The position numbers and the translations under genes are program-made. Shown piece after piece: positions 603 to 48,261 of a stretch of DNA of 64,000 bases. The notes under the pieces were generated by a model. It ran no database searches. It saw nothing but the letters and a program-made list of their open reading frames with translations, and had not been told where the DNA came from. Origin of the DNA: a bacterium (GTDB lineage Bacteria > Hinthialibacterota > Hinthialibacteria > OLB16); contig JAJVIK010000011.1 in assembly GCA_022072055.1 (NCBI GenBank), positions 432,597 through 496,596 of the forward strand. The letters run 5' to 3'. The first letter of the stretch is position 1. Every line of letters begins with the position of its first letter.

Positions 603-3600
603 ATGGGGGAGAACCGAAGGGCCTTCTTCCACTCACGTGGGGGCGCCCTCATCTGTCTCCTCCTGTCGGGGAGCTGCTTTCTTGATCCCCGCGCGCGCGC
701 CAACCCGGAAGACCTCATCCGCCAGTCGCCGGAGGCGGCGGCGGCCAAGAGCGCAAGCTGCCTCCTGTGCCATCAGGGCATCGATGACCCCGACATGCAC
801 GAGTCGGTGAGCCTCAACTTGGGATGCACGGATTGCCATGGGGGGAACCCCCAGACCCGAGCGTTTCAGGCCCCTCCGATGGGGTCGCCGGAACACCTTG
901 CGATGAAGCTTGCCGCCCATGTCCGGCCGAGCCACCCTGAATGCTGGCCCACCTCCGCAAACCCGGAACGGACATACACCTTGCTGAACAAGGAGAGTCC
1001 TGAGTTTATCCGCTTCATCAATCCGGGAGACCTGCGAGTGGCGGAGATTTCGTGCGGCTCCTGTCACGCGCGGGTGGTGTACAACATGCAGAAAAGCATG
1101 ATGACCACCGGCGCGCTGCTGTGGGGGTCCGCCGCCTACAACAACGGCATCCTGCCGGTCAAGAATTACATTCTGGGTGAGAGCTACGGTCCCGATGGGC
1201 TCGCGCGGAAGGTCAACACAGTCCCCGCGCCGACTCCGGCGGAGCTCGCGCGCGGAGTACTCCCCTCCCTGCTCCCGCTGCCGCGCTGGGAGATTGTGCA
1301 GCCCGGAGACATCTTTCGGGCCTTCGAGCGAGGCGGCAAAGCCAATCGCCTGTTTGTGACCGACTCGGTGGGACTTCCAAACCCCTTTGAGGAGCCGGGC
1401 AAACCCGACAATCGCTTGGGAGATCGGGGGCTTGGAACCCAACTTAACATCAGCGTTCCGGTCTTGAACATCCACAAGACCCGTCTCAACGATCCCTTCC
1501 TCTCCTTCATGGGAACTTGCGACCATCCGGGAGATTATCGCTCCTCGGGCTGCACCGCCTGTCACTCGGTCTACGCCAACGACCGCTCGTGGCTGGCCTC
1601 GGGGCCTTGGGCGCCCTATGGGCATCAAGGGCTGTCCTATTCCAATGACCCGACCATCCCCAAGAACGAGCGCGGGCATCCGATTAAGCACCAGTTCACC
1701 AAGGCCATCCCGAGTTCCCAGTGCCTGACCTGCCACCACCATCAGCCCAACGCGTTTGTGAACACCTACCTGGGCTTCCAGATGTGGGATTATGAGAGCG
1801 ACGCGAAATGGATGTATCCCCACACGGGCCACGAACCGAGCGAGGAGGAGCGCCGGCTCACCGCGCTGCACAACCCCGAGGCCGCCGCGGTTCGAGGGAA
1901 TTGGAGGAATCGAGAGTTTCTCGAACGCGCCGCCGATCTCAACCCGAACCTGGAGCACACCCAATTCGCGGACTATCACGGGCATGGATGGATCTTTCGC
2001 GCGGCCTTCAAGAAGGATCGCAAGGGGAACCTGCTCGACAGGAATGGGGCTGTGGTCCCTTTCGACAGTCCCTCCAAATTTGAAAACACCCTCCCGCTCG
2101 CGGGGCGGGATCAGATGGGAACCTGCCCCAACCCCGCTGTCTTTGAACCCAAACCCGGGCAAGCGGTCCATCTGAAGGACATCCATGCCGAAAAGGGCAT
2201 GCACTGCGTGGATTGCCACTTCGAGCAGGATGTTCATGGGGACGGCAAACTCTACGGGGAGTACGCCAACGCCATTGAGATCCGGTGTGAGGATTGTCAC
2301 GGGGATATCGACCATCGCGCCGCGCTGGCAACCTCCGGACCGGCGGCGCCCGAAGGGGGGAACGATTTGCGCGCGGGGCGGACGCCGTGGGGGGAAGACC
2401 GCTTTGTCCGTCGTGGCGAGAAGGTGATTCAACGCTCGATGCTCTATCCCGAGCTGGAGTGGGAAGTGACTCAGGTCAAGGACACGGTCGATCCGAGCTC
2501 GCCTCATTACAACCCCAAGGCGGCTTACGCCAAGACCATCCAGACCGACAACCACACCTGGGGGGACACCGGCGTGGAGGGGCTGGCTCGACTTGCGCAC
2601 AGCTCGCGGAAGATGGAGTGCTACACCTGCCACACCTCCTGGATGACCAGTTGCTTCGGGTGCCATCTGCCCTCCGAGGCCAACTGGAAGATGCCCGCGA
2701 ACCACTATGAGGGGGGCGACAGCCGGAATTACACCACATACAACCCCCAGGTGGCGCGAGACGATGTGTTCATGCTGGGGATCAGCGGCTCGGTCAAGGG
2801 CAACAAGATCGCGCCGGTGCGCTCCTCCAGCGCCTTGCTGCTCAGCAACATGAACCAGAATCGAGAGAAACTGTATATCCAGCAACCTCCAATCTCCGCT
2901 CCGGGATATAGCAGCCAGGCCTTCAACACCCACTTCCCCCACGCGGTCCGCAAGACCGAGACCATGGACTGCGATGACTGCCACCTCTCCGAGAACAACG
3001 ACAACAACGCCTGGATGGCGCAACTGCTCACTCTCGGAACCAACTTTGTGAACTTCATGGGGCGCTTCGCCTGGGTGGGTCAGGGCGAAGGGGGTGTTTC
3101 CGCCGTGGCGGTCACCGAATGGGACGAGCCTCAGGCGGTGATCGGGAGCTATCTCCACCAACAGGTCTACCCCAACCGGTTCGGGGAACATCTTGCCCGT
3201 GGGGCGATCCTCCAGGAGGCCTATCATCACCATTCGGTGGGAGGGAGCCTTTTCCCCTGGGACAAGCATGACATTCGCGGATTGCAGTTGGTCGGCCAAT
3301 ACCTCTTCACCGCGAGCGGGCATGAGGGGCTGCGGGTATTCGATGTGGCCAACATCGATAACAAGGGTTTCTCCGAGCGCTTTGTATCCGACCCGGCCAC
3401 CCCGCTGGGGCATGACACCCATGTGGACACGGAGTGCGCCACGGCCGTGGCGCTTGGAACCAACATGCCGTTGGCGTTCGACCGGGAGTATCGTCCCGAA
3501 AACCAGGAACAGTGGCCGATCCATCCGCTCTACCGCCACGCCTATGTGACCGACTTGCGTGAGGGGCTGGTGGTGGTCAACATCGAGACCCTGTCCAATC

Positions 3601-4487
3601 GGGATCCGCTGGACAACTTCCTCAGACGGTGCGCCACCTTCAATCCGGGCGGCCTGCTAACCGGCGCGACCAACATCAAGATCGCTGGGAACCACGCTTA
3701 CATCTGCTCCAGCGCGGGACTGGTGATTGTCTCCATCGATAACCCGCTCTCGCCCACGGTGACGGCAGTCATTGGGAATGACCTTGTTCAGCGACCCAAG
3801 GCGGTGGAGATTCAATTCCGGTATGCCTTTGTGGTGGATGAAACGGGCCTCAAGATCGTCGACACCACAGTTCCGGAGCAACCGCGCCTTGCGGCCTCGC
3901 TCGATGTGGCTGACGCCCATGACATCTATGTGGCCCGGACCTACGCCTATATCGCCGCCGGACGGCAGGGACTGGTGATTGTGGATGTCGAAAGACCCGA
4001 GGCGCCTTTCATCGATCAGGTCTATAGCGCCGGCGGTTCCATAAACGACTCGCGCGCGGTCCGGGTCGCCGGCACGAACGCCAGTCTGTTCGCCTATGTC
4101 GCGGATGGAAGAAACGGTCTCAAGGCGCTCCAGCTCACCTCCCCGGAGACTGTCCCCGGCTACCTGGGCTTCAGCCCTCGTCCCAACCCCCGTGTGATCG
4201 CCTGCTACCCCACCGAACATGAAGCGGTGGCGCTCTCCAAGGGATTGGACCGCGACCGCGCGGTGGATGAAAGCGGGAACCAGGTGAGTGTGTTTGGCCG
4301 TCTGGGGGGACGCCCTTTCAACCTCGGGGAAATGAGGCGGCTGTATGTTCACGAGGATGGCCAAATCTACAAGGTTCGGAAACTGGATCAGGCCCCCCCG
4401 CCCATTCAGGGGCGCGGATTTCCCACTTCTCCGACGCAATCTTCGGATGCGCCTCGGGAGGTGGAGGCGACAGATGTGGATAGATGA
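603..4487 (+). CDS. Decahaem c-type cytochrome with C-terminal LVIVD-repeat propeller
   Basis: A 1294-residue exported protein. I chose ATG 603 because it begins a signal peptide (basic start, ALICLLLSGS core, ARA cleavage site near residue 33) and follows the barrel gene; an upstream in-frame start at 561 would overlap that gene. Ten CXXCH haem-binding motifs lie between about residues 53 and 795 (CLLCH, CTDCH, CGSCH, CTACH, CLTCH, CVDCH, CEDCH, CYTCH, CFGCH, CDDCH). From about residue 890 to 1230 there are repeats of the LVIVD type (GLRVFDV, GLVVVNI, GLVIVSI, GLKIVDT, GLVIVDV), which form surface propeller-like domains. Multihaem cytochromes move electrons in the periplasm or across the outer membrane. 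Electron transfer is a secure inference; the substrate is unknown. Confidence 0.9.
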   Translation: MGENRRAFFHSRGGALICLLLSGSCFLDPRARANPEDLIRQSPEAAAAKSASCLLCHQGIDDPDMHESVSLNLGCTDCHGGNPQTRAFQAPPMGSPEHLAMKLAAHVRPSHPECWPTSANPERTYTLLNKESPEFIRFINPGDLRVAEISCGSCHARVVYNMQKSMMTTGALLWGSAAYNNGILPVKNYILGESYGPDGLARKVNTVPAPTPAELARGVLPSLLPLPRWEIVQPGDIFRAFERGGKANRLFVTDSVGLPNPFEEPGKPDNRLGDRGLGTQLNISVPVLNIHKTRLNDPFLSFMGTCDHPGDYRSSGCTACHSVYANDRSWLASGPWAPYGHQGLSYSNDPTIPKNERGHPIKHQFTKAIPSSQCLTCHHHQPNAFVNTYLGFQMWDYESDAKWMYPHTGHEPSEEERRLTALHNPEAAAVRGNWRNREFLERAADLNPNLEHTQFADYHGHGWIFRAAFKKDRKGNLLDRNGAVVPFDSPSKFENTLPLAGRDQMGTCPNPAVFEPKPGQAVHLKDIHAEKGMHCVDCHFEQDVHGDGKLYGEYANAIEIRCEDCHGDIDHRAALATSGPAAPEGGNDLRAGRTPWGEDRFVRRGEKVIQRSMLYPELEWEVTQVKDTVDPSSPHYNPKAAYAKTIQTDNHTWGDTGVEGLARLAHSSRKMECYTCHTSWMTSCFGCHLPSEANWKMPANHYEGGDSRNYTTYNPQVARDDVFMLGISGSVKGNKIAPVRSSSALLLSNMNQNREKLYIQQPPISAPGYSSQAFNTHFPHAVRKTETMDCDDCHLSENNDNNAWMAQLLTLGTNFVNFMGRFAWVGQGEGGVSAVAVTEWDEPQAVIGSYLHQQVYPNRFGEHLARGAILQEAYHHHSVGGSLFPWDKHDIRGLQLVGQYLFTASGHEGLRVFDVANIDNKGFSERFVSDPATPLGHDTHVDTECATAVALGTNMPLAFDREYRPENQEQWPIHPLYRHAYVTDLREGLVVVNIETLSNRDPLDNFLRRCATFNPGGLLTGATNIKIAGNHAYICSSAGLVIVSIDNPLSPTVTAVIGNDLVQRPKAVEIQFRYAFVVDETGLKIVDTTVPEQPRLAASLDVADAHDIYVARTYAYIAAGRQGLVIVDVERPEAPFIDQVYSAGGSINDSRAVRVAGTNASLFAYVADGRNGLKALQLTSPETVPGYLGFSPRPNPRVIACYPTEHEAVALSKGLDRDRAVDESGNQVSVFGRLGGRPFNLGEMRRLYVHEDGQIYKVRKLDQAPPPIQGRGFPTSPTQSSDAPREVEATDVDR

Positions 4488-30665: not shown

Positions 30666-33566
30666 TCACTTGAGCCTCAACCCCACCCGCTTCCCCTGCT
30701 CAATCGCCCGCCAATAGTCCCCCTCCACCGCGCGGTACATCGCCGGTAACCCCGCCGGACGAGAGTCCGGATCGACCTCGATCCAAACCTCCGGCTCCGG
30801 AATTGGCCCTTGCCCCTTGATGAGCGGCCCCATCTCGCAGATCACCCCGGTTACCGGGCGCTCGGTCCCATCCGGATTGAGTATTCCGTAGTCGCTCCTC
30901 TCGCCGGTCCGGAATCCCCCCGCATACCACCACACCACGACCCCATTCGAGCGGGATTCGAGCACCATCCTGAAGAACCGGCGATAGTATTCGGCGACCC
31001 TCTCGAGGTTGGCTAAGGGACACGACAGGGTGGTCATGTCCCACGCGCTCTGACCTATCTCCGCCCACATAACCGGGAGGTCGGGATTCACCGCGCGAGC
31101 GTAGTCCACCGTGAAACGACCGGGACGAACCCGATCCCACCCCCCGATCCGCCCGTAGCCCTCCGGTTCCCAGATGTCCACCGCGCGCCCCAGGCCGCGG
31201 AAATCGTAGGGAATCCAAGTGGGTCCGAGATAAGTGGGATCGCCGGTGACTGTCATCCGGAAGCTGACCGCGTGGTTCGGGTCCACGGATCGCACGAGGT
31301 CGCGGGCTCGGCTGTATTTCTCATGCAACAGATAGTTCAGGAAGCCCGCATAGTCCACCAACATGACGTCCCAGGGGCCACTCTCAAACCACTCGCGGCT
31401 CTGGGGGACAGGGAGCAGACCCTCGGCAAGCTCCACCCGATGGCTCCATGCCCTCAAAGCAGCCTCCAGGCTCCCATCCTTGGCATGGATCCAATCGTTC
31501 CACTCCGCGGTGTAGCGCGAGCGCTCCTTGTACCCATAGTGGAACGGCTCCCACGCAAGGTCATAGGCAAACACGGTCCGGTTGGAGGGGAGCCTCGAGT
31601 GCTCGATCATCTCCCGGATATCTTCCCACTCGAAATCCAAGGGGGTCCCGGGGCGCAACGAAAGGTTCACGCGCAAACCGTGTCTCTCGCACAGACGCAA
31701 CAAATCGATCAGGTTTCCGGCCGAGAGCGACTGGTGATACAGAAACACGCTCACCATGTTCATCCCCATGTCCGCGACCCGCGCGAGATCGCGCTCGACA
31801 ATCTCCGGGTCATAACCGCGCGGCCCGAGCCAATGCTCGAACGGCTCCCATTCCTCGCGCGCGATTCCCGAGGAGGGCATGTAATTGACCCCGAAGGGGA
31901 ACCAGGGCTTACCCTCTAGCAGAAAATCACCCTTTTCGATCCTGACCCAATCGAGGGTTGGGTCCGGCTCCCAGAGGTGGAAATCGTGCTCGATGCGGTC
32001 GAGCGCCCGATCCGCTCGCAGGAGTGTCAGGCGGGCGCGATAGGTCTTGCCCTTCTCGAAGGGGATCCCATCGAGGATCTGCTCATCCCCATGCTCATAC
32101 AGCGGCGAACCGGAATCCTCCCAGAGGACCTTCCCTGTTTCCGTTTCGGTCACTTTCCATTGGATCGAAAGCCCCTCCCTTGCGGCCTCGGAGGCCACGG
32201 TCTCTTCGCCGATCGAGGGGATGTGGTCCGGGAAGTAAGTGAACTTCGAGGTCCCGCCCTCCCACAGGAAACACTCCTCGCGCAACCTCATGGCCAGCTC
32301 CACGATGAAGGACCGGATCGAGTCTTGGCGATAGAACAAAGGGTCCCGGATGGCGAAGGCCGCCCACATCCGTTCCAGGTTGGGGGTGAACCGGAGCGCA
32401 GCGATGGCCCCGCGATAGTCCCCTTGGGGGGAGAGCGCTTCCAGGAGTGGAATCCAGCGATGGGTCCGTTCCTTTCCGTATCCGCTGGAAAGAGGACGGG
32501 GATGGAGGGCTTCCACCGAGGAAGGGAGTCGCGCCTCGGTCGCCGCGGGGGTCGGAACTAACGCCTGCTTGGGCGAGACGCGAATCTCTCCCACAGCGGC
32601 GCAGGGGTAGGCGTGATAGGAGGGGAACAACATCTCCCTCGGTCTGAAATTCACCTCCCAGCCGATGTCGAGGCGGTCTCTTGCCCGGCAAGTCCCGATA
32701 TCGGTGATCCAGAACTCATGGTCTCCGGCAAGGCCGGGGGTGTGGGAAAGGGCCAGCCCGCAACTGAAGCGCTTGGCGCGGGAAAGGGAAAGCTCGGTTC
32801 CGGCGCGGGATGGAACGCTCTCCCAGAACGCAAACTCCTTCTGTGGGAGCACATGGCGCTTCCATTCGGCGGTCAAGGGAACGGTCGCCATCCAGCGCGA
32901 GCCATCCTGTTCCTCCCACTCGAAGAGCAGACGGGTGGTGTTGGGTCCCCCCTTGGCCCAGAAACAGGTGAAACGGTGGTCCTCCGCCACCGGGGTTTTG
33001 AGGTTCGGACTGTAGAGCGTGTCCCACCCATCATGGTCCTTGATGATCCGATGCAGACAGTGACCGCGAGTCGGATCCACAACAACCTCCGAAACACTTG
33101 GGTGGCTGGGGTTGTTGCTTGTCCGATTCCAGAGGGAAAGGTCCCCTGAGGAGAAGTCGGACAGGAGATAGTCGAGGGGGATCTTGGCAAGTTCCTCCTC
33201 ATAGGCTTCCCGGATGGTCCATTTTCCATCCAGGATCTGAACCGGCTTGCGGAAAAGAGTCCCGCCGAGAGCGATCAAGCGCCCGCCGCCCTCCAAATAG
33301 GCTTCCAGCGGTTTGGCGAAGGGGAGAGGGAGAACCCCGGCATCCGTGAGGATGAGCAGGTTCTCTCGCGCGGGGGTCGGAAAGCCGGGTGAGAGCAGCT
33401 CGGTCGGCCGAATCGGGGTGACCGATTGTCCGCGGTCGGTGAAAGCGGCAGCCAGTTCTTGTCCGACCTCCGGGCTTGCGCCGGGGAGGTCGTTGACAAG
33501 GACCCAAGTCTCCGCGTGAGCGGACGCGTAGACAAGGAACAGAGATAGCGTGAGGAAGGATCGCAT
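30666..33566 (-). CDS. Secreted GH5-like glycoside hydrolase
   Basis: 966 residues with a signal peptide (MRSFLTLSLFLVYASAHA). An N-terminal ThuA/glutamine-amidotransferase-like stretch (LLILTDAGVLPLPF, GGGRLIALGG) is followed by beta-rich modules and a TIM barrel from about residue 545: DFLLEGKPWFPFGVNYMP, DLARVADMGMNMVSVFLYHQ, FAYDLAWEPF near 674 (acid/base position after strand 4) and LPVMWAEIGQSAWD near 832 (nucleophile-type Glu after strand 7). This is the clan GH-A layout of GH5 and related enzymes. Substrate not predictable. The 3' end runs into Rhs remnants of the island. Confidence 0.75.
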   Translation of the reverse strand: MRSFLTLSLFLVYASAHAETWVLVNDLPGASPEVGQELAAAFTDRGQSVTPIRPTELLSPGFPTPARENLLILTDAGVLPLPFAKPLEAYLEGGGRLIALGGTLFRKPVQILDGKWTIREAYEEELAKIPLDYLLSDFSSGDLSLWNRTSNNPSHPSVSEVVVDPTRGHCLHRIIKDHDGWDTLYSPNLKTPVAEDHRFTCFWAKGGPNTTRLLFEWEEQDGSRWMATVPLTAEWKRHVLPQKEFAFWESVPSRAGTELSLSRAKRFSCGLALSHTPGLAGDHEFWITDIGTCRARDRLDIGWEVNFRPREMLFPSYHAYPCAAVGEIRVSPKQALVPTPAATEARLPSSVEALHPRPLSSGYGKERTHRWIPLLEALSPQGDYRGAIAALRFTPNLERMWAAFAIRDPLFYRQDSIRSFIVELAMRLREECFLWEGGTSKFTYFPDHIPSIGEETVASEAAREGLSIQWKVTETETGKVLWEDSGSPLYEHGDEQILDGIPFEKGKTYRARLTLLRADRALDRIEHDFHLWEPDPTLDWVRIEKGDFLLEGKPWFPFGVNYMPSSGIAREEWEPFEHWLGPRGYDPEIVERDLARVADMGMNMVSVFLYHQSLSAGNLIDLLRLCERHGLRVNLSLRPGTPLDFEWEDIREMIEHSRLPSNRTVFAYDLAWEPFHYGYKERSRYTAEWNDWIHAKDGSLEAALRAWSHRVELAEGLLPVPQSREWFESGPWDVMLVDYAGFLNYLLHEKYSRARDLVRSVDPNHAVSFRMTVTGDPTYLGPTWIPYDFRGLGRAVDIWEPEGYGRIGGWDRVRPGRFTVDYARAVNPDLPVMWAEIGQSAWDMTTLSCPLANLERVAEYYRRFFRMVLESRSNGVVVWWYAGGFRTGERSDYGILNPDGTERPVTGVICEMGPLIKGQGPIPEPEVWIEVDPDSRPAGLPAMYRAVEGDYWRAIEQGKRVGLRLK

Positions 33567-33593
33567 GGCGAGAGGCCTCGGGGAGAGATTCGG

Positions 33594-33809
33594 TCACGAG
33601 CTGGGCGAGAGGGGACAAGCAACTTTCCCGATCCCGAGCTTCTTGAGGATGGTCATCATCGGGCACCAGTCGGTGAAGGCCGATTGGAGCAGATTAGCGC
33701 CGACGAAGGCGTTGAACCACAGCCAGTTCAGGGAGTGGTACACCGCCAGGAGCAGGCTGAGGAGCACAAAGAACCCGGCGATGCCGCGAAGGATACGATC
33801 GATGGACAT
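33594..33809 (-). CDS. YgaP-like small membrane protein (DUF2892)
   Basis: 71 residues from ATG 33809, preceded by GGAGGG. The sequence follows the YgaP transmembrane-domain pattern closely: [20 protein letters not shown], then [20 protein letters not shown] and [14 protein letters not shown]. Two membrane helices. The full-length family also has a rhodanese domain, which is missing here. The family is linked to sulfur handling but the function of the membrane part is unknown. A longer start at 33872 adds implausible Arg/Pro-rich residues. Confidence 0.85.
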
Positions 33810-33954
33810 GTTTCCGGCCCTCCTGGGACCTGGATTCAGGAATGGGACGATTTTACCCCGACGCCCTCGCAAACCCCATCCCCTCGATGCGAACCGGACT
33901 TCTCAGACGCCAAAATGGCATCAAGTTCTCCCCTTGCTCCTTGTAGCACAATTG

Positions 33955-33975
33955 GGCCATAATGGAGCTATGGCC
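33955..33975 (+). promoter_or_regulatory. Inverted repeat at the antitoxin start, candidate autoregulatory operator
   Basis: GGCCAT, 9 bp, ATGGCC: a perfect 6-bp inverted repeat that spans a CATAAT (-10-like) sequence and the antitoxin ATG. Toxin-antitoxin operons usually repress themselves at such palindromes. No binding data; inferred from symmetry and position. Confidence 0.4.
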
Positions 33976-34215
33976 GCTAAAGGATCGTATGTTCGCGCCC
34001 GGGTGGACGATGGATTGAAGCGAGATGTCGAGACCATCCTGCACACGCTTGGACTGAATACGACGGAGGCCATCCGCCTTTTCCTTCACCAAATCCGAAT
34101 AAGGAACGGGTTACCGTTTGATCTGCTGCTTTCAGAAGATAACTGCGACATTCTCCTTCCCAATTCCATGCGCCAAGCGGCATTGAACTCGCTTTACGAT
34201 GATCCAGCCGGGTAA
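33970..34215 (+). CDS. RelB/DinJ-family antitoxin
   Basis: 81 residues: MAAKGSYVRARVDDGLKRDV, then ILHTLGLNTTEAIRLFLHQI and RNGLPFDL, the standard ribbon-helix-helix of RelB/DinJ antitoxins. It binds its promoter and neutralises the partner toxin. The last 17 nt overlap the toxin gene, giving coupled translation. The partner is a MazF/PemK-type, not a RelE-type, toxin. Confidence 0.9.
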   Translation: MAAKGSYVRARVDDGLKRDVETILHTLGLNTTEAIRLFLHQIRIRNGLPFDLLLSEDNCDILLPNSMRQAALNSLYDDPAG

Positions 34216-34528
34216 AGTCTACCTTGTGGACTTGGGATTTGCGGGCAAGTATCGCCTCATGGTTGTCCTATCGCGCAGGGATGACAGCGCTCCAAGGGCA
34301 TTGGCCGTATGTGCTCCGATAACCACATCCCGTCGCGGGGGCCAATACGAAGTTGAGGTCGGAAGAGTTCCCTTCCTATCGGCCGACAGCTGTATCAATG
34401 TCCAGGATATACAAGCGGTCCAACATCACGAACTCAAGCGGCGCATCGGTTCCCTGCCAGAAGCGGCCTTGGCGGCCTCCAAGGCGGCGTTAGTGTTCAT
34501 GTTTGATCTGGAAGAATCTGACAATTAG
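34199..34528 (+). CDS. MazF/PemK-family toxin (endoribonuclease)
   Basis: 109 residues, the usual MazF size: MIQPGKVYLVDLGFAGKYRL (the beta-strand pair with the Gly/Lys-Tyr/Arg signature of this family), LMVVLSRRDDSAPRALAVCA, ITTSRR, and a final helix. MazF toxins cut mRNA at short motifs. Here the canonical EG..RP is altered to FAGKYR, as in several PemK-like members. Starts inside the antitoxin gene. Confidence 0.85.
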   Translation: MIQPGKVYLVDLGFAGKYRLMVVLSRRDDSAPRALAVCAPITTSRRGGQYEVEVGRVPFLSADSCINVQDIQAVQHHELKRRIGSLPEAALAASKAALVFMFDLEESDN

Positions 34529-36066: not shown

Positions 36067-36957
36067 CTACTCCTCGGCGAGCAAACTTCTTTGCCGGAAC
36101 CACGCCCTGGTCACCAACCCGTGCCTCGGCGAAAACAGGAATGTCAGAAGGAAGAGAACACCCGCCGCCACGGCCATCGCGCCGGCGATGGAACAGTCCG
36201 CGGCTGAGGCGAGCGAATACCCCAAACCCGCCGACAAGCACCCGATGAGGGACGCCAGGATCAGGACGCCTGAAAGCCTCTGGGTCAGGAGCAGGGCCGT
36301 CGCGGGGGGAACCACCAGCATCGCCACCACCAGAATCGCCCCGACGCTTTCAAATGCGGCCACGGTGGTGATCGCGGTCGCGATCATCAGAAGGTAGTGG
36401 TAGGTCGCGGTCCGGATCCCGAGCGATTCCGCAAGTTCGGGGTCAAAGGCGCAGATCTTGAGCTGCTTGTAGAAGGCCACAATCAGGAACAGGTTGAACA
36501 ACAGCGCGCCTCCCAACAGCCAGACCGCGCGGGGTCCGAGGTCTCTCTCCCCCCAAAGGACCGTGTCGTACGCCACATACGCGATCTCCCCATACAGGAC
36601 ACAATCCGGATCGAGATCGATCTGTCCCGCGAAAGCCGAAACGAGGATCACACCCAGCGCGAAGAGGAAGGTGAACACCACCCCCATGGAGGCGCCCGTA
36701 TCGACCCTTCCGGAGCGATGAACCCATTCGGTCAGCCAAGCGGTCAGCACACCGACCGCGCCCGCGCCGAGGAGCATCACCAGCGGGTCCCGTGAACCGG
36801 ACAACAAAAAGCCTCCCACCAGACCCGGCAGGACTGCGTGGCTGATGGCGTCCCCCATCAGGACCATCCGACGCAGCACCAGGAAGGTTCCGACGAGGCC
36901 GCATGTGACCGCCACCAGGCAGGCGGTGAGGAGGATCCAGAAGGAGCTATTCATCAA
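36067..36957 (-). CDS. Metal ABC transporter permease (ZnuB/MntB/TroC family)
   Basis: 296 residues, about nine helices. Seen: GTFLVLRRMVLMGDAISHAV (the conserved DAISHAVLPG segment of ABC-3 permeases), AFDPELAESLGI, AFESVGAILVVAMLVVPPAT. Inner-membrane channel of a manganese, zinc or iron importer. Last gene of a four-gene minus-strand operon; its ATG overlaps the end of the permease upstream (36954-36957). Confidence 0.92.
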   Translation of the reverse strand: MMNSSFWILLTACLVAVTCGLVGTFLVLRRMVLMGDAISHAVLPGLVGGFLLSGSRDPLVMLLGAGAVGVLTAWLTEWVHRSGRVDTGASMGVVFTFLFALGVILVSAFAGQIDLDPDCVLYGEIAYVAYDTVLWGERDLGPRAVWLLGGALLFNLFLIVAFYKQLKICAFDPELAESLGIRTATYHYLLMIATAITTVAAFESVGAILVVAMLVVPPATALLLTQRLSGVLILASLIGCLSAGLGYSLASAADCSIAGAMAVAAGVLFLLTFLFSPRHGLVTRAWFRQRSLLAEE

Positions 36958-38270
36958 ACCTCTCCCTCTCGACCCCGGCTTGCGGGGGGAATGGGATGGG
37001 TGTGCGGATCCGTGGTTGGCGAGGAGAGGATGACTTCCAGCTCATCCTCCTGGGCCTGGGTCAGCCAGTGTTCGATCTCTTCGGCGTCTTGATGCACCTT
37101 TTCGACCGGCAACTTGACCTGTTCGGTGAGATAGAGCTCCCACAAACGGTGCCTGCGAATAATCCGTTCCGCCATCTGAAACCCGGTCTGGGTCAGAATC
37201 CACCGGTCCCCTTCACCGCGAACGTACCCCTCGCGTTCCAGTTGGGAGAGGATGCCGAGGGCTTTCGGGGCGGCCAGGCGACGGTACCGAAGAATGGATT
37301 CCAGAGGCCAGGGCCTGCTGAAATCGCGCGCGTGCTCGCCCAGGCGGTAGAGCGTGGTGATCAGGTTCTCGGAGGCCACCACGGTTCGCCCTCGAAGGGT
37401 GCGAAGCGCTTGCGCCAGCACCCCGCGGCGGGGCGCGAACAGAAGGCTGACGACAAAGAAGAGGGTCACGGTCACCACGATCCAAGGGCCGGTGGGCATG
37501 CGCGGCGCGAGGGAACTCGCGAAGGCCCCCACCGCTCCCGCCGCCGAGCCGAAACCTCCAGCGAGGATAAGCATCCGAGGGAGACGGTCGGTCCATTGGC
37601 GCGCCGCCGCCGCCGGGGTGATTAGCAGCGCGGCCATGAGCACCACCCCGACCATCTGGAGACCGATGGCGATGGCCGCCACAAGCAAGGTGGTCAGAAG
37701 GATCTCGAAGGTGGAGGCCCGCAACCCAAGGGCCCGCGCGAAATCGGGATCGAAGGCCAGGACCTTGAACTCTTTGAATGCCAATGTGACTACCCCACAC
37801 AGGATTAGCGAGAGCATTCCGAGCGCCCACACATCCCGGGCCATCAGCGAAGCGGCCTGTCCAAAGAGGAACTTGTCCAAACCCGCCTGACTCGCGTTTC
37901 CGGCCCCTTGGATGAGGGTGAGCAGGCAGATCCCCGCGCCGAAAAAGACGGTCAAGACAATCGCGATGGCGGAGTCCTCCTTGAGCGGAGAATAGTTCCG
38001 GATCAGGTCAATGCTGATTGCCCCCATCCACCCCGCCGCGATGGCGCCCAGGAGCAGGACATGCGGCTCCTTCGATCCGAAGAGGAGATAAGCCAGGCAG
38101 ACCCCCGGCAGAGCGGCATGCGAGATGGCGTCCCCCACAAGGGACCTTTTGCGGAGGAAGGTGAAACACCCGACCACCCCCGTGGTCCCCGCCAGAAGCA
38201 TCGATCCGAGGAGAACATGGCGGACATTGGCGTCCGCGAGGGACAGAAATCGGAGCGCTTCGGCCCACAT
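36954..38270 (-). CDS. Metal ABC permease fused to a DtxR-type regulator domain
   Basis: 438 residues from ATG 38270, two bases after the ATPase stop; the frame is open to 38459 but only as a shadow of that gene. Residues ~1-275 form an ABC-3 permease (KRSLVGDAISHAALPGVC, FDPDFARALGLRAS, ALLITPAAAARQW). From about 290 the sequence becomes a winged-helix plus metal-binding/dimerisation part of DtxR/MntR type: VASENLITTLYRLGEHARDF, LGILSQLEREGYV, WELYLTEQVKLP, HQDAEEIEHWLT. Such fusions occur in TroC-like permeases. The tail may sense cytoplasmic metal to gate transport or act as a regulator; a separate MntR-like gene lies nearby. Confidence 0.88.
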   Translation of the reverse strand: MWAEALRFLSLADANVRHVLLGSMLLAGTTGVVGCFTFLRKRSLVGDAISHAALPGVCLAYLLFGSKEPHVLLLGAIAAGWMGAISIDLIRNYSPLKEDSAIAIVLTVFFGAGICLLTLIQGAGNASQAGLDKFLFGQAASLMARDVWALGMLSLILCGVVTLAFKEFKVLAFDPDFARALGLRASTFEILLTTLLVAAIAIGLQMVGVVLMAALLITPAAAARQWTDRLPRMLILAGGFGSAAGAVGAFASSLAPRMPTGPWIVVTVTLFFVVSLLFAPRRGVLAQALRTLRGRTVVASENLITTLYRLGEHARDFSRPWPLESILRYRRLAAPKALGILSQLEREGYVRGEGDRWILTQTGFQMAERIIRRHRLWELYLTEQVKLPVEKVHQDAEEIEHWLTQAQEDELEVILSSPTTDPHTHPIPPASRGREGEV

Positions 38271-38272
38271 GC

Positions 38273-39097
38273 TCAGGAGCCGCTCCTCTCGAGGGTTTCG
38301 AGCACGTCCGAGAGCAGGGTTAAACCTCCGCCGTAGGTGGCGCGGAGGTTCGACGGAGTGAAGGCGGACTCGGTGGGGCCGGATGCGACCAGGCGGAGAT
38401 TGAGTAGCACGACCTGATCGAAATAGGAGGTCACCGTCTGGAGATCGTGGTGGACACAAACCACGGTCTTGCCGCGCGCCTGGAGGTCCTTGAGGATTTC
38501 AATCACCGCTCGCTCGGTGGCGGCATCCACGCCCGCAAGGGGTTCATCCATCAGGTAGACTTCGGCCTCCTGGGCCAGCGCCCGCGCCAGAAACACGCGC
38601 TGCTGCTGGCCTCCGGAGAGCTGGCTGATCTGGCGTCCGGCGTAGGGAGCCATCCCCACTTTTTCGAGGCAAGCGAGCGCGGTTTCGCGATCGCGCGCGC
38701 GGGGGCGTTGAAACAGTCCGAGTTTTCCATACCGCCCCATCAAGACAACATCGAGCGCGTTGGTCGGGAAGTCCCAATCCACCGAGCCGCGCTGAGGGAC
38801 ATACCCAACCAGGCCGCGACTCCGATCAATCGGCTCGCCGAAGACTCGCACCTCCCCCGAGGCGAGAGGGATAATCCCCATGATGGCCTTGAGCAGGGTG
38901 CTCTTGCCCGCGCCGTTGGGACCGATGACCGCGGTCAGCCCGCCTTCCTTGATTAAAAGATTAATGTCGCGCAAAACCGGCTTGCGGTGGTAAGTCACCG
39001 TAAGATCAGCCACTTCGATGGGGGCTGGGGCGCCAGCCCCCCTTTCGGGTTTCGCTTCCCTCGGGAAGCGAATGGTCTTTCCGGAGTTTCCCGCCAT
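38273..39097 (-). CDS. Metal ABC transporter ATPase (ZnuC/MntA/TroB family)
   Basis: 274 residues from ATG 39097. Walker A GPNGAGKSTLLKAIMG, Q-loop YVPQRGSVDWDFP (the SVDWDFP form is common in manganese/TroB-type ATPases), signature LSGGQQQRVFLARAL, Walker B VYLMDEPLAGVD. It powers the two permeases encoded downstream. The reading frame extends further upstream to 39253, but the extra residues overlap the binding-protein gene. Confidence 0.93.
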   Translation of the reverse strand: MAGNSGKTIRFPREAKPERGAGAPAPIEVADLTVTYHRKPVLRDINLLIKEGGLTAVIGPNGAGKSTLLKAIMGIIPLASGEVRVFGEPIDRSRGLVGYVPQRGSVDWDFPTNALDVVLMGRYGKLGLFQRPRARDRETALACLEKVGMAPYAGRQISQLSGGQQQRVFLARALAQEAEVYLMDEPLAGVDAATERAVIEILKDLQARGKTVVCVHHDLQTVTSYFDQVVLLNLRLVASGPTESAFTPSNLRATYGGGLTLLSDVLETLERSGS

Positions 39098-39114
39098 GAA
39101 GGTCCCGCCGCGGT

Positions 39115-40077
39115 TTACTTGAGCGCTCCCACAATCGCGTTCACATTGTGGCGGAACATCCCCGGGTATGTCCCTTCCGGGGTCCCCTCCTCCCCCATCG
39201 CGTCCGAGAAGAGCGTGCCGCCGATGATCACCTTGTGGCCGCGCGCCTGGCACCCCTCCTGAACCGCCTCGATGCTACGACGCGGGATGCTGCTTTCAAC
39301 AAACAGCGCCTTGATCCCTCGTCCCACAATCGTGTCTACAAGACGGTTGACATCGTTCAGGCCAAACTCCGCGGCGGTGCTCACCCCTTGGAGTCCCATC
39401 ACCTCGATCTCATACGCTCGACCGAAATAGTGGAAGGCATCGTGGGCGGTGATCAGGACACGCTGCTCCTTGGGGATTTCAGCAATTCGCTCCTTGGCCC
39501 AATCGTGCAATTCGAGGATTTCCTCCCGGTACTTGGAGGCCCGGCCCTGGTACTCGGATGCGTGCGGGGGATCGAACTCCGCGAGCGCCCCGCCCGCGGC
39601 CTCAACGACCAAGGCCCACAGGGAGGCGTCAAACCAGACATGCGGATCAACGGCGAGCTCCCCGCCCTCTTCCCCCACGCGGATCAGCAGATCCTCCGGA
39701 AGACGCTGGGCCAGGGCGATGGACGGTTTGGACCTTCCGATCTTTTCCAGGATTTCGACCATCTTCCCCTCCAAGTGAAGCCCCGAGTAGAAGACCATGT
39801 CGGCGGAGTCGAGGGCTCGAACATCCCCTTGCGAGGGTTTGAAGAGGTGCGGGTCCACACCTGAGGCCATCAGCGCCTCGACCTGGACGAGGCCCCCCCC
39901 CACATTCCGGACAGCGTCCGCGACCATGCCGACCGTGGCGACCACTTGAATCGGGTGCTCGCCCTGGAATTTGAACTCGCGCGCCCCTACCCCCGTTCCG
40001 GCTAAAAGGATCACAACACAGGCGACGGATAAGGCCAGGCGCGAAAGCGGCTTGGGGGAACGAGGTTCTCGGGACAT
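39115..40077 (-). CDS. Metal-binding periplasmic protein of the ABC system (ZnuA/TroA/MntC family)
   Basis: 320 residues with a signal peptide (LSVACVVILLAGTGVGA). Metal ligands expected for the TroA fold are present: DPHLFKPSQGDVRAL, DPHVWFD, HDAFHYFGRAY and a late Asp (LFSDAMG). No His-rich loop like that of zinc-specific ZnuA is seen, which favours manganese. First gene of the operon, with a candidate regulator site 37-53 bp upstream. Confidence 0.92.
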   Translation of the reverse strand: MSREPRSPKPLSRLALSVACVVILLAGTGVGAREFKFQGEHPIQVVATVGMVADAVRNVGGGLVQVEALMASGVDPHLFKPSQGDVRALDSADMVFYSGLHLEGKMVEILEKIGRSKPSIALAQRLPEDLLIRVGEEGGELAVDPHVWFDASLWALVVEAAGGALAEFDPPHASEYQGRASKYREEILELHDWAKERIAEIPKEQRVLITAHDAFHYFGRAYEIEVMGLQGVSTAAEFGLNDVNRLVDTIVGRGIKALFVESSIPRRSIEAVQEGCQARGHKVIIGGTLFSDAMGEEGTPEGTYPGMFRHNVNAIVGALK

Positions 40078-40113
40078 GGCTCGGGGCGGAAAAAACCTCT
40101 CCTGGATTTTCGG

Positions 40114-40130
40114 AATTTAGTCTATGCTAA
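40114..40130 (-). promoter_or_regulatory. Candidate DtxR/MntR operator upstream of the metal ABC operon
   Basis: Read towards the operon it is TTAGCATAGACTAAATT. It shares TTAG-n-AT-nnn-CTAAATT, 13 of 17 positions and the same orientation, with the site at 40705-40721. The core TTAG-N6-CTAA is an inverted repeat like the half-sites of DtxR-family operators. A second imperfect repeat, TTAACC-AAG-GGTAA (40162-40175), lies in front of the regulator gene. Confidence 0.6.
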
Positions 40131-40212
40131 CCCGGCGCCGAGGGTCGAGTCAAGGCAAAACTTAACCAAGGGTAAATTTTCAAACCTCGGGTCAACAGTG
40201 GAGGAACGGATT

Positions 40213-40653
40213 GTGACGGCAACTGCGCGGGCGAAAACCTCGGAAAAGAATCCATTCCGGCGGATGCGGACGGACCACGCCACGGAGACCGGGGAGGATT
40301 ACGTGGAGCTGGTGGCGGACCTGCTGGACATCAAGGGGGAAGCGCGGACCGTGGACTTGGCCAAGCGCCTCGGAGTCACGGCGGTGACAGTCTCAAAGAC
40401 CATCCAGCGCCTCGAGAAGTCCGGGCTGATCAAGACCGAGCCGTACCGTTCCATCTTCCTCACCGAGAAGGGGCGGAAGGTCGCCAAGGATGTAAAGGAT
40501 CGGCATGACACAGTCCAGGCGTTTCTCGAGGCCATCGGAGTACGCCCGGAGATCGCCAAGGAGGACAGCGAGGGGATGGAGCACCATATCAGCAAGGAGA
40601 CGCTCAACTGCATGAAGCGGTTCCTCCGAAAGTCCACGCGCAAACGAGGCTAG
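40213..40653 (+). CDS. mntR: DtxR/MntR-family metal-responsive regulator
   Basis: 146 residues. I chose GTG 40213 because GGAGG (40200-40204) lies eight bases before it; GTG 40198 has no such signal. N-terminal winged helix: YVELVADLLDIKGEARTVDL, AKRLGVTAVTVSKTIQRLE, GLIKTEPYRSIFLTEKGRKV. Metal/dimerisation domain: ALEA-type helix VQAFLEAIGV, then EDSEGMEHHISKETLNCM with the Glu/His ligands of MntR-type sensors. Length and single-domain design fit MntR. Divergent from the ABC operon it probably represses when metal is plentiful. Confidence 0.85.
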   Translation: MTATARAKTSEKNPFRRMRTDHATETGEDYVELVADLLDIKGEARTVDLAKRLGVTAVTVSKTIQRLEKSGLIKTEPYRSIFLTEKGRKVAKDVKDRHDTVQAFLEAIGVRPEIAKEDSEGMEHHISKETLNCMKRFLRKSTRKRG

Positions 40654-40699
40654 AGCCTCGACTCCAAGTACGGAATTCATGCTTGACCCCGAGGGCCCC

Positions 40700-40724
40700 C
40701 TAAATTAGTATGCGCTAAATTAGT
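40700..40724 (+). promoter_or_regulatory. Second candidate metal-regulator site, with a perfect 10-bp direct repeat
   Basis: CTAAATTAGT occurs twice with a 15-bp period (40700-40709 and 40715-40724). Within it, TTAGTATGCGCTAAATT (40705-40721) matches the site upstream of the ABC operon at 13 of 17 positions. It lies about 36-60 bp before ATG 40760. This places the outer-membrane gene under the same control. Confidence 0.6.
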
Positions 40725-40759
40725 GTTATTCGGCTTAACTCCCGATTGGAGGAAATCGG

Positions 40760-41617
40760 ATGCTCCGCCCCCATCCGCAAACGCTGTGTCTTCTGTCTTG
40801 GGCCCACGCCTTCATCGTCCCATGTCTCCCGTTCTTCTTGTCCGCCAACCTCGCTTGTTGCGAGGCCCCCCCCGAACTGGTCACCGACCGCCCGGATCAG
40901 ACTGAGTCCACCTCCATCGTTCCGCCGGGCTTCACGCAGATTGAGATCGGATGGACTCACGCCATGGACGACGAGGATGGCGAGGAGACACACTCGGATT
41001 CCCTCCCCGAAACCCTCCTCAGGCTGGGTCTCACGGATCGTCTCGAGCTTCGCCTCGGACATTCGGGCCACTCCTGGGAGCGGATCGACTTCGACAATGG
41101 CGCCCCAAGCGAGGAATCCGAGGGGTGGGGCGACAGCGCGGTCGGGTTCAAGTACGACCTCTGGGATGAAGTGGAAGGGTGTTTTATCCCGGATGCCGCG
41201 TTGATCGCGCACCTATCGCTCCCCACCGGGGCGGGGGGGCATTCAACCAAGCGCACCGACCCCGGTTTTCGATTCACCTTTTCCCACACCCTCGCGGAAG
41301 ACCTTGCCCTTTCCTACAACCTGGGAGCGGAATGGGAAACCGCCGAGGATTCGCGCGGGGAAGAAGACACTCTGTCGTCCCTTGTCTGGACCGTTTCTGT
41401 CGGAAAATCGCTCACGGACCGCCTGGGCGCATTCGTGGAACTCTTCGGCGACACCCCACTCAGCGCCGGGGGAACTCCCGCAAGTTCCTTTGATGGAGGA
41501 TTCACCTACCTGATCGCCGAAAATCTCCAGATCGATGTCCTCGCCGGGGTCGGGCTTTCCGAGGGCGCGGAGGACTGGTTTATCGGCTCCGGTGTCAGCT
41601 ATCGGTTCCCCCGATAA
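40760..41617 (+). CDS. Outer-membrane transporter-like barrel, probably metal-regulated
   Basis: 285 residues. ATG 40760 has GGAGG seven bases upstream; a signal peptide (PCLPFFLSANLACC) precedes the mature start. PPELVTDRPDQTESTSIVPP is the hallmark opening of the MetA-pathway/transporter-type barrel family, followed by strands with alternating residues and a C-terminal aromatic-type end (GSGVSYRFPR). Located directly after the regulator gene and preceded by the shared operator motif, it may help metal cross the outer membrane (inference). Confidence 0.8.
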   Translation: MLRPHPQTLCLLSWAHAFIVPCLPFFLSANLACCEAPPELVTDRPDQTESTSIVPPGFTQIEIGWTHAMDDEDGEETHSDSLPETLLRLGLTDRLELRLGHSGHSWERIDFDNGAPSEESEGWGDSAVGFKYDLWDEVEGCFIPDAALIAHLSLPTGAGGHSTKRTDPGFRFTFSHTLAEDLALSYNLGAEWETAEDSRGEEDTLSSLVWTVSVGKSLTDRLGAFVELFGDTPLSAGGTPASSFDGGFTYLIAENLQIDVLAGVGLSEGAEDWFIGSGVSYRFPR

Positions 41618-44599: not shown

Positions 44600-47557
44600 A
44601 TGCCTGAAGACAAGATCATTATCCGCGGCGCGCGGGAACACAACCTCAAGAACATCAATCTGGAACTCCCCAGAAACAAGCTGGTGGTGTTCACCGGGGT
44701 CTCCGGGTCGGGGAAATCCTCGCTGGCCTTCGACACGATTTACGCCGAGGGGCAACGTCGCTATGTCGAGTCGCTCTCGGCCTATGCCCGCCAGTTTCTG
44801 GGTCAAATGGAGAAACCGAAGGTCGATTACCTCGGGGGCCTTTCCCCCGCCATTTCCATCGAACAAAAGAGCACCTCCAAGAATCCGCGCTCCACAGTCG
44901 GAACGGTGACCGAGATCTACGATTACATGCGCGTTCTGTGGGCGCGGGTCGGGGTCCAACACTGTCACAAGTGCGGCAAGCCGGTGGGGGCGCAATCCAC
45001 CGAACAGATCATCCACCGCATCCTGCACTACCCGGAGGGGACCAAATTGATGCTTCTCGCCCCGGTGGTCCGGGACCGCAAGGGCGAGTACCGGGATCTG
45101 TTCGAGGACATGCGCCGGGATGGGTTTGCCCGCGCGCGGGTGGATGGGGAGGTCTATGAGCTCGAGCGCCTCCTTCCGGCGGAGGGAAAACGGGCGGCGG
45201 AGATCGAGCTCGATAAGCGCCTGAAGCACAGCATTGAAATTGTGGTGGACCGGATCATCCTGCGCGAGGGCATCGAGTCCCGTCTCGCCGATTCGGTGGA
45301 GATGACCCTGGAGAAGGGCGAGGGGTTGCTGATCGCCAAAGTGATTGATGGCGAGGAGACCCTCATGTCGCAGCGCAGCGCCTGCACCGATTGCGGGATC
45401 AGCTTCGAGGAGCTCGCCCCACAGAACTTCTCCTTCAACAACCCCAAGGGGATGTGCCCAGCGTGCGATGGGTTGGGGCGCAAGCTGGAGTACGATCCCG
45501 ACCGAATTGTCCGCGATCCCGCCAGGTCGATCCGCGCGGGCGCTATCGGCCCGATCCGGAGCGTGTTCGAGGATGGCAAGAAATCTCACTGGTCGCGGGT
45601 CATCGCCCAGAATCTCCGTCAGCTGGCCGACCACGCCGGTTTCTCCCTGGACACACCCTATGGGCGCCTCAAGAAAGCCCATAAAGACCTGTTGATGAAC
45701 GGTCCCACCCCTAAGGAGAAGGGGAAGCTGGGGTGGAAGGGGATGATCCCCATGCTCAAGCGCTGGTTTGAGAACACGAACAGCGAGGGGATGCGCACCT
45801 GGTTGCTTGAGCAATACATGACCCCGGTCACTTGCCGGACATGCGGCGGCGGGCGGCTCAAGCCCGAAAGCGCGGCGGTCAAGGTGGGCGAGAAATCGCT
45901 GGTCGAGGTCACCCGGCTCACCGTGGAGCAATCGCTCCAATTCTTCGACGCCCTCTTTGGCGAGGATTCCCATCCCAGGGAAGGAGTGGGCGCCTTCGGA
46001 GGCAACGGCAAACCGGGAACCGCTTGGATCACCCACCCGCTGGATGAGATCCCGTCGCGACTTTCCGAGGTGGAGATGGAGATCGCCGCCGAGGTGCTCA
46101 AGGAGGTTCGGGGGCGACTCAAGTTTCTACTCGATGTCGGCCTCTATTACCTAACCCTCGACCGTTCCGCGCCAAGTCTTTCCGGGGGCGAGGCGCAGCG
46201 GATTCGCCTTGCCAGCCAGATCGGCTGCGGCTTGGTGGGGGTGCTCTATATTCTGGATGAACCCAGCATCGGCCTGCACCAGCGCGACAACCGGAAACTG
46301 ATCGACACCTTGTGCCGCCTGCGAGACATGGGCAACACGGTGATTGTGGTCGAACACGATGAAGAGACCATGGAGCGCGCGGATTACCTGGTGGATTTCG
46401 GTCCGGGGGCGGGGGTCGCGGGCGGGGAGATTGTGGTCGCGGGTCCCCCCGAGGAGGTCAAGGAGCACCCGGACTCCCTCACCGGACAGTATCTGACCGA
46501 GCGCCTGCGCATCCCGGTTCCTGAAGGGCGTCGTAAGGGCAACGGACAGAAGGTGACCATCGTGGGCGCCACGGAAAACAACCTCAAGGACATCAATGTC
46601 GAGATTCCGCTTGGCAAGTTCACTTGCATCACCGGCGTCTCCGGGTCGGGGAAATCAAGCCTCATCAACGAGGTTTTGTACAAGTCTCTCGCCGTGGATC
46701 TGAACGGGGCCTCGGAGAACCCCGGCAGGCACGAACGCATCCTGGGGATCGACAACCTGGACAAGGTGATCGATATCGACCAGAAGCCGATTGGGCGGAC
46801 CCCGCGCTCGAATCCCGTCACCTACACCAAGGTCTTCGACCCGATCCGTCACCTGTTCGCGCAGCTTCCGGAGGCCAAGGCGCGCGGGTATCAGGCCGGT
46901 CGGTTCTCTTTCAATGTGAAGGGGGGGCGTTGCGACGCCTGCGAGGGAGATGGTGTGAAGCGGATTGAGATGCACTTTCTCGCGGATGTGTTTGTCACCT
47001 GCGATGTGTGCAAGGGGACCCGCTTCAAACGCGAGACCCTGCAGGTCAAATTCAAGAATCACTCCATCGCGGATGTGCTCGATCTCACTGTGAACCAGGC
47101 GGTGGAGCTGTTTAAGGACATTCCCAAGATCAGGCGGATCCTGGACACCTTGGTGGAGGTCGGGTTGGGATACATCCACTTGGGACAGTCGGCCACCACC
47201 CTTTCCGGAGGCGAGGCGCAGCGGGTCAAACTGGCCAAGGAGCTTTGCAAGGTCGAGACCGGGCGCACGCTCTACATCCTCGACGAGCCCACCACGGGCC
47301 TTCATTTCGCGGACATCGACCGCCTGCTTTCGGTGCTCAACCGCCTGGTAGACCGCGGCAACACGGTGGTGGTGATCGAGCACAACCTGGATGTGATCAA
47401 GAGCGCGGATTGGATCATCGATCTGGGACCGGAGGGGGGCTTGGATGGCGGTACGGTGGTGGCGCGAGGGACCCCGGAAGAGCTGGCCGAATGTGAGCGG
47501 TCTTACACCGGACGGTTCCTGCGGAAGGCGCTGGGGATGGAGCTCCAACCGGCATGA
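44600..47557 (+). CDS. uvrA: Excinuclease ABC subunit A
   Basis: 985 residues. Two ABC ATPase halves: Walker [16 protein letters not shown] and [15 protein letters not shown]; signature motifs [12 protein letters not shown] and [12 protein letters not shown]; Walker [14 protein letters not shown] and [13 protein letters not shown]. Zinc modules: [38 protein letters not shown] with CDVCKGTRF. It finds damaged DNA and loads UvrB. The stop overlaps queC by ATGA. Confidence 0.97.
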
Positions 47558-48261
47558 CTCACCCAGAGAGACCCGTTCGGGCGGTGGTGCTGCTTTCGGG
47601 AGGGCTGGATTCGGCCACGGCGCTGGCCATCGCTCGGTCCGAGAGACGCGAGTGTCATGCGCTCTCCTTGCGCTACGGGCAGCGCCACGAGATCGAGCTC
47701 GCGGCGGCCTCAAACCTCGCGCGGGCCCTTGGCGCGTCTCAGCATCTGATCCTGGACTTGCCGCTGGACCGCTGGGGGGGATCGGCGCTCACCGGGGACT
47801 TCGAGGTCCCCAAGGATCGCGCCTCGGAGGAGCTCGGCAGTGGCATCCCGATCACCTATGTCCCGGCGCGCAACACGGTCTTCCTGGCGTTGGCGCTGGC
47901 TTGGTCGGAGACCCTTGGCGCGGAGGAAATCTGGATCGGGGTGAACGCCCTGGATTATTCAGGCTATCCGGACTGCCGCCCGGAGTTCATCCGGGCTTTC
48001 GAGGAGGTAGCGCGCCTCGGGACCAAGGCGGGAGTAGAAGGGAACGTGCGCCTCTCCATCCGCGCCCCGCTTCAATTCCTCACCAAGGCGGAGATCATCC
48101 GCAAGGGGATCGCCCTCGGAGTGGACTATAGCCTCACTCGCTCCTGCTACGACCCGCCCACTCCGGACCTCCACTGCGGCCGCTGCGACTCCTGCCTGCT
48201 CCGCAAGAAGGGCTTTGCCGAGGCGGGGGTGGAGGACCCGACGAGATACGCCGCGCCTTAA
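47554..48261 (+). CDS. queC: 7-cyano-7-deazaguanine synthase
   Basis: 235 residues. The ATP-pyrophosphatase loop [16 protein letters not shown] near residue 12, [29 protein letters not shown], and the zinc site with four Cys in the C-terminal part ([18 protein letters not shown]). Makes preQ0 from carboxydeazaguanine for queuosine or related nucleotides. No other que genes or preQ1 riboswitch are present. Translation is coupled to uvrA by the four-base overlap. Confidence 0.95.

Follow-up and report, generated by a model that had tools for sequence, protein, structure and literature searches.

Putative MntR boxes at a TroABCD-type importer operon and at the gene for an outer-membrane barrel of the COG4313 family

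Described systems and the present locus

In E. coli, the MntR regulon comprises mntH, mntS and mntR. The locus described here, within a 64-kb stretch of bacterial DNA (the window), is alike in regulator subfamily (PRK11050) and box type, but its MntR is predicted to act on an ABC importer of the TroABCD type and on an outer-membrane barrel. To our knowledge, E. coli K-12 has neither such an importer nor such a barrel under MntR. In Bradyrhizobium, the outer-membrane protein MnoP is controlled by Mur. MnoP mediates Mn import and is comparable with the barrel in role; it is one of the few proteins (MnoP, MnoT and OmpU) that the cited excerpt names for outer-membrane Mn(II) entry under scarcity (PMC9334652). 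The MntR module of Stenotrophomonas maltophilia is described as containing mntH, mntP and TBDR-pTFP, likewise with MntR boxes near mntR before an outer-membrane transporter; there the transporter is a TonB-dependent receptor accompanied by a periplasmic protein of thioredoxin fold (PMC13217887), whereas the present locus has a small COG4313 barrel. The tro promoter of Treponema pallidum overlaps its operator, as here, whereas TroR is encoded within the tro operon and the cited excerpt mentions no outer-membrane channel (PMC2628430).

Of the Treponema TroABCD-TroR proteins, it is TroA to which the binding protein of the window is closest. Chlamydia YtgABCD/YtgCR has the same order of binding protein, ATPase, permease-DtxR fusion and second permease (with ytgB presumably in the ATPase position); a separate MntR is additionally present here. 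The barrel shares the PF13557 family and fold with the COG4313 channels Pput2725, SphA and TcpY and with FapF, which are tied to hydrophobic uptake or amyloid secretion, whereas the window barrel is tied to Mn import genes. MntR regulons with an outer-membrane receptor, Mn channels, operator-promoter overlap and permease-DtxR fusions are thus already known. A COG4313/PF13557 barrel as the outer-membrane partner in an MntR regulon is unreported in the open-licence literature searched: PF13557 with manganese returned nothing, COG4313 no title on metal among those listed, and the MetA pathway with metal and outer membrane unrelated titles only.

Table 1. Coordinates of the genes, putative boxes and promoter-like elements of the locus (window positions).
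Feature	Position	Strand	Remarks
Second permease, without DtxR domain	36067..36957	-	PF00950
First permease with C-terminal DtxR/IdeR-type winged-helix and metal-binding domain (YtgCR-like)	36954..38459	-	PF00950 and PF02742; IdeR match
ABC ATPase	38273..39253	-	PF00005; listed start overlaps the binding-protein gene, true start probably near 39097
Substrate-binding protein, ZnuA/TroA type	39115..40077	-	PF01297; best PDB match TroA 1toa, E 1.3e-77
O1, putative MntR box TTAGCATAGACTAAATT	40114..40130	-	Upstream of the ABC operon; holds the -10 hexamer of its promoter
Promoter-like TTGACT-18-TAGCAT, ABC operon	40124..40153	-	-10 inside O1
O3, putative MntR box AAACTTAACCAAGGGTAAATTT	40158..40179		Between O1 and mntR; second-best MntR-box score of the window
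mntR, E. coli-type Mn-responsive DtxR-family repressor, 151 aa	40198..40653	+	NF008273; GTG start, exact start uncertain
Promoter-like TTGACC-17-TAGTAT, barrel gene	40683..40711	+	-10 inside O2
O2, putative MntR box TTAGTATGCGCTAAATT	40705..40721	+	Before the barrel gene; top MntR-box score of the window
Outer-membrane channel, COG4313/PF13557 family, 285 aa	40760..41617	+	PF13557 90.6 bits, cut-off 22

The regulator, its putative operators and their conservation

The first-pass annotation had described an MntR-like gene flanked by two 17-bp operators of a metal regulon. The gene product scored 185.5 bits against the E. coli-type MntR model NF008273 (curated cut-off 153), and its best PDB match was E. 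coli MntR (2h09). Six Mn ligands (D34, E37, H103, E125, E128, H129) were found by alignment with the reference set in B. subtilis numbering (D8, E11, H77, E99, E102, H103). In an alignment of 12 sequences, conservation of these ligands was 90% or higher, and the recognition-helix region was conserved as well, with V60, T64 and V65 invariant.

Both 17-bp sites (O1 and O2) lie exactly where they had been placed, on the strands given, and are identical at 13 of 17 positions. This identity had been offered as evidence for operators but carries little weight: dinucleotide shuffling of both upstream regions reached 13/17 in 35 of 500 cases, so the pair by itself is no proof of an operator. With up to two mismatches, TTAGYATNNNCTAAATT was found at 2 places in the window against 0.06 expected. 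The genome scan that had been suggested gave O1 and O2 as the only exact copies of TTAGYATNNNCTAAATT in 5.86 Mb, and TTAGNNNNNNCTAAATT with zero mismatches likewise returned these two alone. At two mismatches TTAGYATNNNCTAAATT had four further places, which makes six matches against eight for the reversed control, and such a scan cannot define a wider regulon. The core TTAGN6CTAA occurred at just six places in the genome, two of them O1 and O2, compared with 65 for the reversed control. The others were not counted as regulon members, given their contexts as judged by eye: one (L058) sits in an apparent integrated element, two (L059 and L060) are located at gene ends and one (L061) is in a phage-like gene cluster. 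In this last case (L006:1501-1517, C22) the core, TTAGCATAGGCTAA, lies immediately 5' of a small gene.

We then scored 22-base MntR boxes with hand-set weights, chosen once the window and four related loci (L042-L044 and L048) had been inspected. Of 63,979 positions scored in the window, the top three fell within one 600-bp stretch, at 40701 (0.84), 40158 (0.82) and 40113 (0.78); the next best scored 0.67. Among 60 shuffled windows there were two scores of at least 0.78, and the top score for the reversed window was 0.79. In E. coli K-12, the top match of the scorer was AAACATAGCCTTTGCTATGTTT beside mntH (5.5 kb scanned) and AGATATAGCACAGGCTATATTA between mntS and mntR (5.5 kb scanned). The second of the window sites, O3, had been missed by the first-pass annotation. 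It adjoins the -35 hexamer of the ABC promoter, 18 bp 5' of the mntR GTG, and resembles the box that precedes the barrel-holding unit in genome G378; autoregulation of mntR through O3 is possible.

MntR boxes are dyads of the type TAGC-N4-GCTA 5' of Mn import genes, and O1 and O2 hold the core TTAGN6CTAA in that position. Each of O1-O3 departs from the dyad at some positions, and O1 is only partly palindromic outside the core; O2 spans two direct copies of CTAAATTAG (40700-40708 and 40715-40723). The predicted operator consensus is about AAATTTAGCCnnGGCTAAATTT. Exactly two sigma-70-like promoters were found in 40050-40780, where 0.2 were expected, and each has its -10 hexamer inside an operator. 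The shared TTAGYAT can therefore be read as an operator arm joined to a -10 element, which accounts for the like orientation of O1 and O2 relative to their target genes. Judged from sequence, the motif at O1 and O2 is an MntR box.

We found the box at other Tro loci as well. In MntR-bearing genomes it was present upstream of 8 of 9 such loci (G005, G286, G149, G165, G308, G282, G021 and Phycisphaerales ES-bin-47), with scores of 0.73-0.93 and p-values of 0.001-0.014 by shuffling, which flatter the conservation because the target intervals were set after inspecting matches. In seven of these, nothing else in the locus scored as high as the box. The E. coli control and the test on an Nramp-family gene of the own genome (below) are free of this after-the-fact choice. 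In three of the boxed genomes (G149, G165 and G286) mntR is distant from the Tro operon. The ninth genome, G290, lacked a box before its Tro operon; another DtxR-family gene adjoins this operon. The three Tro loci of genomes without such an MntR (absence judged at E 1e-18) scored 0.49 (G001, of the same family as the window genome), 0.56 (G357) and 0.63 (G096); the last is a weaker palindrome with p 0.023.

Some further features were seen at these loci. The mntR frame of G005 seems shifted near codon 45 (L040:8001-8423), which may be a true defect or an assembly error. G286 carries two tandem MntR boxes (L082:4365-4413) 5' of a DUF1559 pilin-like gene (3239-4324), 3.6 kb from mntR. In G290, two tandem MntR boxes (L083:8464-8511) lie between mntR and the gene for an unrelated porin (PF13372, alginate-export type), a hint that different barrels may fill the same place.

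The Nramp-family gene of the own genome was sought by protein family and not by motif (NF037982 105 bits, cut-off 50). DPGN is a motif of the Nramp family, and the gene product is without it. Upstream lies TACCTTAGCCAAGGCTAGATAT with a score of 0.80; the next best within 3.4 kb was 0.59. This box is about 230 bp from the likely Nramp start. A divergent ORF for a secreted protein starts only about 10-30 bp away, which leaves the target of the box uncertain; the Nramp-family gene is a possible further member of the regulon. The second ABC-3 system (C3) and the second DtxR-family gene (C2) were considered as members too, and showed no box in the stretches read. PT-repeat-rich secreted ORFs diverge from both the Nramp-family gene and the second DtxR-family gene (L116 and L038).

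The importer, the barrel and their neighbourhoods

The binding protein, ATPase and two ABC-3 permeases form one apparent operon of the TroABCD/MntABCD type. For the ATPase, Mn/Fe ABC ATPase models ranked top yet stayed under their cut-off. Two permeases had been reported before, and both are present; the DtxR-type domain (Fe_dep_repr_C) at the C-terminus of the first, as in YtgCR, had been overlooked. We modelled this domain from an alignment (A2) that also contained 13 further fused domains as well as the MntR of the window. It was predicted as a complete winged helix plus dimerisation domain (pLDDT 90), with DR2539 and IdeR as best matches, and retains the metal-binding H and E/H residues. 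Across the 14 fused domains, the recognition-helix region has no MntR-like invariant pattern and the E11 ligand is absent. With its metal residues kept and its recognition helix unconserved, the fused domain may gate the transporter rather than bind DNA. The window thus holds a permease-fused DtxR-type domain (36954-38459) together with a separate MntR gene. Elsewhere in the window, judged by eye, a RelB/DinJ-like antitoxin gene adjoins a MazF/PemK-like toxin gene (33550-34528), and uvrA runs 4 bases into the start of a queC-like gene (44600-48261).

The outer-membrane barrel of the first-pass annotation was borne out by its PF13557 score and by structure prediction. By sequence the barrel had no match in the PDB. 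A model from 15 sequences (pLDDT 88.9) matched FapF (Z 25.2) and the COG4313 channel 4rl8 (Z 24.5; 232 residues aligned at 2.4 A). DSSP gave 14 strand pieces, some of them short; the family is 12-stranded.

We searched 386 genomes for homologues of the barrel (E 1e-6) and of the Tro permease (E 1e-25). The barrel was found in 22 and the permease in 67; eight genomes had both, and in six of these they are at most 5 kb apart (the window genome, G005, G228, G087, G378 and G282; not linked in G286 and G357). The barrel closes the Tro operon as its last gene in G005. The order is dtxR-barrel-SBP-ATPase-permeases in G228 and G087, and barrel-dtxR-SBP-ATPase-permeases in G378. In G282, barrel and Tro operon are divergent with one box in common; between this box and the barrel lies an ORF of 421 aa (L086:5839-7104) that has a CxxCH haem motif and matches no Pfam family. 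Two other importer families were met beside barrels, Nramp in G338 (barrel-dtxR-Nramp, Nramp 428 bits) and ZIP in G058 (barrel-ZIP); as they were recognised post hoc, they count as leads. Altogether an importer lies within 5 kb of the barrel in 8 of the 22 genomes (Tro six, own genome included, Nramp one and ZIP one), or 7 of the 21 others. None of the tested metal genes was within 5 kb of the barrel in 12 of the 22. The barrel flanks of G033 and G356 stop at contig edges, and the neighbourhood re-scan of G183 gave no barrel match.

Boxes were found upstream of the barrel-holding unit in G378, G338, G228, G087 and G282. There was no box at any of the six unlinked barrels tested, nor before the barrel-ZIP pair of G058. 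The barrel of G191 was not counted as linked: MntR, at 4.7 kb, is the only metal gene nearby, an importer is missing and the barrel lacks an upstream box. We also discarded a 'metal clade' of barrels, since the linked ones are scattered over a tree of poor backbone support (5 changes, a number as low in 303 of 500 shuffles). The proposed metal regulon is supported by the -10 hexamers within both boxes and by PF13557 barrels beside metal importers in other lineages. The regulon membership proposed by the first-pass annotation is supported yet incomplete, with a possible Nramp-family target elsewhere in the genome.

Alternative readings and proposed mechanism

That the likeness of the two 17-mers is a product of chance seems very improbable: shuffled upstream regions do attain it, but both 17-mers are unique genome-wide and overlap -10 hexamers, the boxes recur across other genomes and the scorer recovers the E. 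coli sites. Tro-type systems carry Mn, Fe or Zn, and the genome has its second DtxR-family gene, so the operators might serve an Fe- or Zn-responsive protein of this family in a regulon that answers these metals and not Mn. TroR of T. denticola, for its part, is described as responding to Mn and Fe (PMC2628430). The adjacent regulator, however, carries ligands of the Mn type and scores above the MntR cut-off, and no box was seen near the second DtxR gene, which makes an Fe or Zn regulon quite unlikely. We also hold it improbable that the fused DtxR-type domain, released or membrane-bound, binds the operators alone or besides MntR. Its complete predicted fold and retained metal-binding residues would allow this, and there is the precedent of the permease-fused YtgR of Chlamydia, which binds the promoter of its own operon, with permease-DtxR fusions known from 11 phyla (PMC5599777). 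Yet the boxes accompany the standalone MntR and not the fusion. G001 has the fusion (61% identical permease) and lacks both such an MntR and the box, the fusion-bearing Tro operon of G290 is boxless with the boxes adjoining its mntR instead, and the fused domains are without the invariant recognition-helix pattern and E11.

The barrel could also belong to the regulon without carrying metal, as an importer of hydrophobic or amphipathic compounds (a metal-binding small molecule, for example) or as an outer-membrane part required under Mn stress. The cited excerpt on a COG4313 channel of known structure judges it unlikely to pass hydrophilic molecules and assigns hydrophobic substrates to SphA and TcpY (PMC4493636), and the closest fold, FapF, is a secretion channel. 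We regard a barrel of this kind as somewhat unlikely. The family adjoins three unrelated importer families (Tro, Nramp and ZIP) whose sole common substrate class is divalent metal ions, and inspection by eye of the surroundings of the window locus showed no genes for metallophore biosynthesis.

The metal-regulon reading of the locus is supported by the MntR score and by the boxes at other Tro/Mnt operons and at the E. coli sites. Very probably, O1-O3 are MntR operators at which Mn-loaded MntR represses the importer and the outer-membrane channel together. As O1 and O2 lie inside the start signals of these units, the sensor can probably switch off the import operon and the channel gene when Mn is plentiful. 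In the mechanism we infer, sufficient cytoplasmic Mn(II) would place Mn-loaded MntR dimers on the dyads O1-O3. MntR at O1 and O2 would cover the -10 hexamers and so turn off the TroABCD-type importer and the COG4313-type channel; O3 would add repression and may serve in autoregulation of mntR. Under Mn scarcity, importer and channel would both be made. The metal, free or complexed, would then cross the outer membrane through the channel and be carried into the cytoplasm by the binding protein, ATPase and permeases.

Sensor, importer and this type of channel are paired in unrelated bacteria too, which points to a role with metals for a family of channels hitherto tied to oily molecules. More tentatively, and with confidence just short of even, we propose that some COG4313/PF13557 barrels are a widespread dedicated outer-membrane port for Mn(II) or a related divalent metal, paired with the Tro, Nramp or ZIP importer of the host and in several lineages controlled by MntR or a different repressor of the DtxR family; at the present locus this would be a two-sensor system of soluble MntR and a permease-bound DtxR domain. 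Since the locus joins a soluble Mn repressor and a permease-fused DtxR domain, the purpose of the fusion becomes testable outside Chlamydia. A conserved small barrel beside three importer families, predicted to be controlled by MntR, would be a concrete candidate family for outer-membrane Mn(II) entry, in a group whose studied members have so far been assigned to hydrophobic uptake or amyloid secretion.
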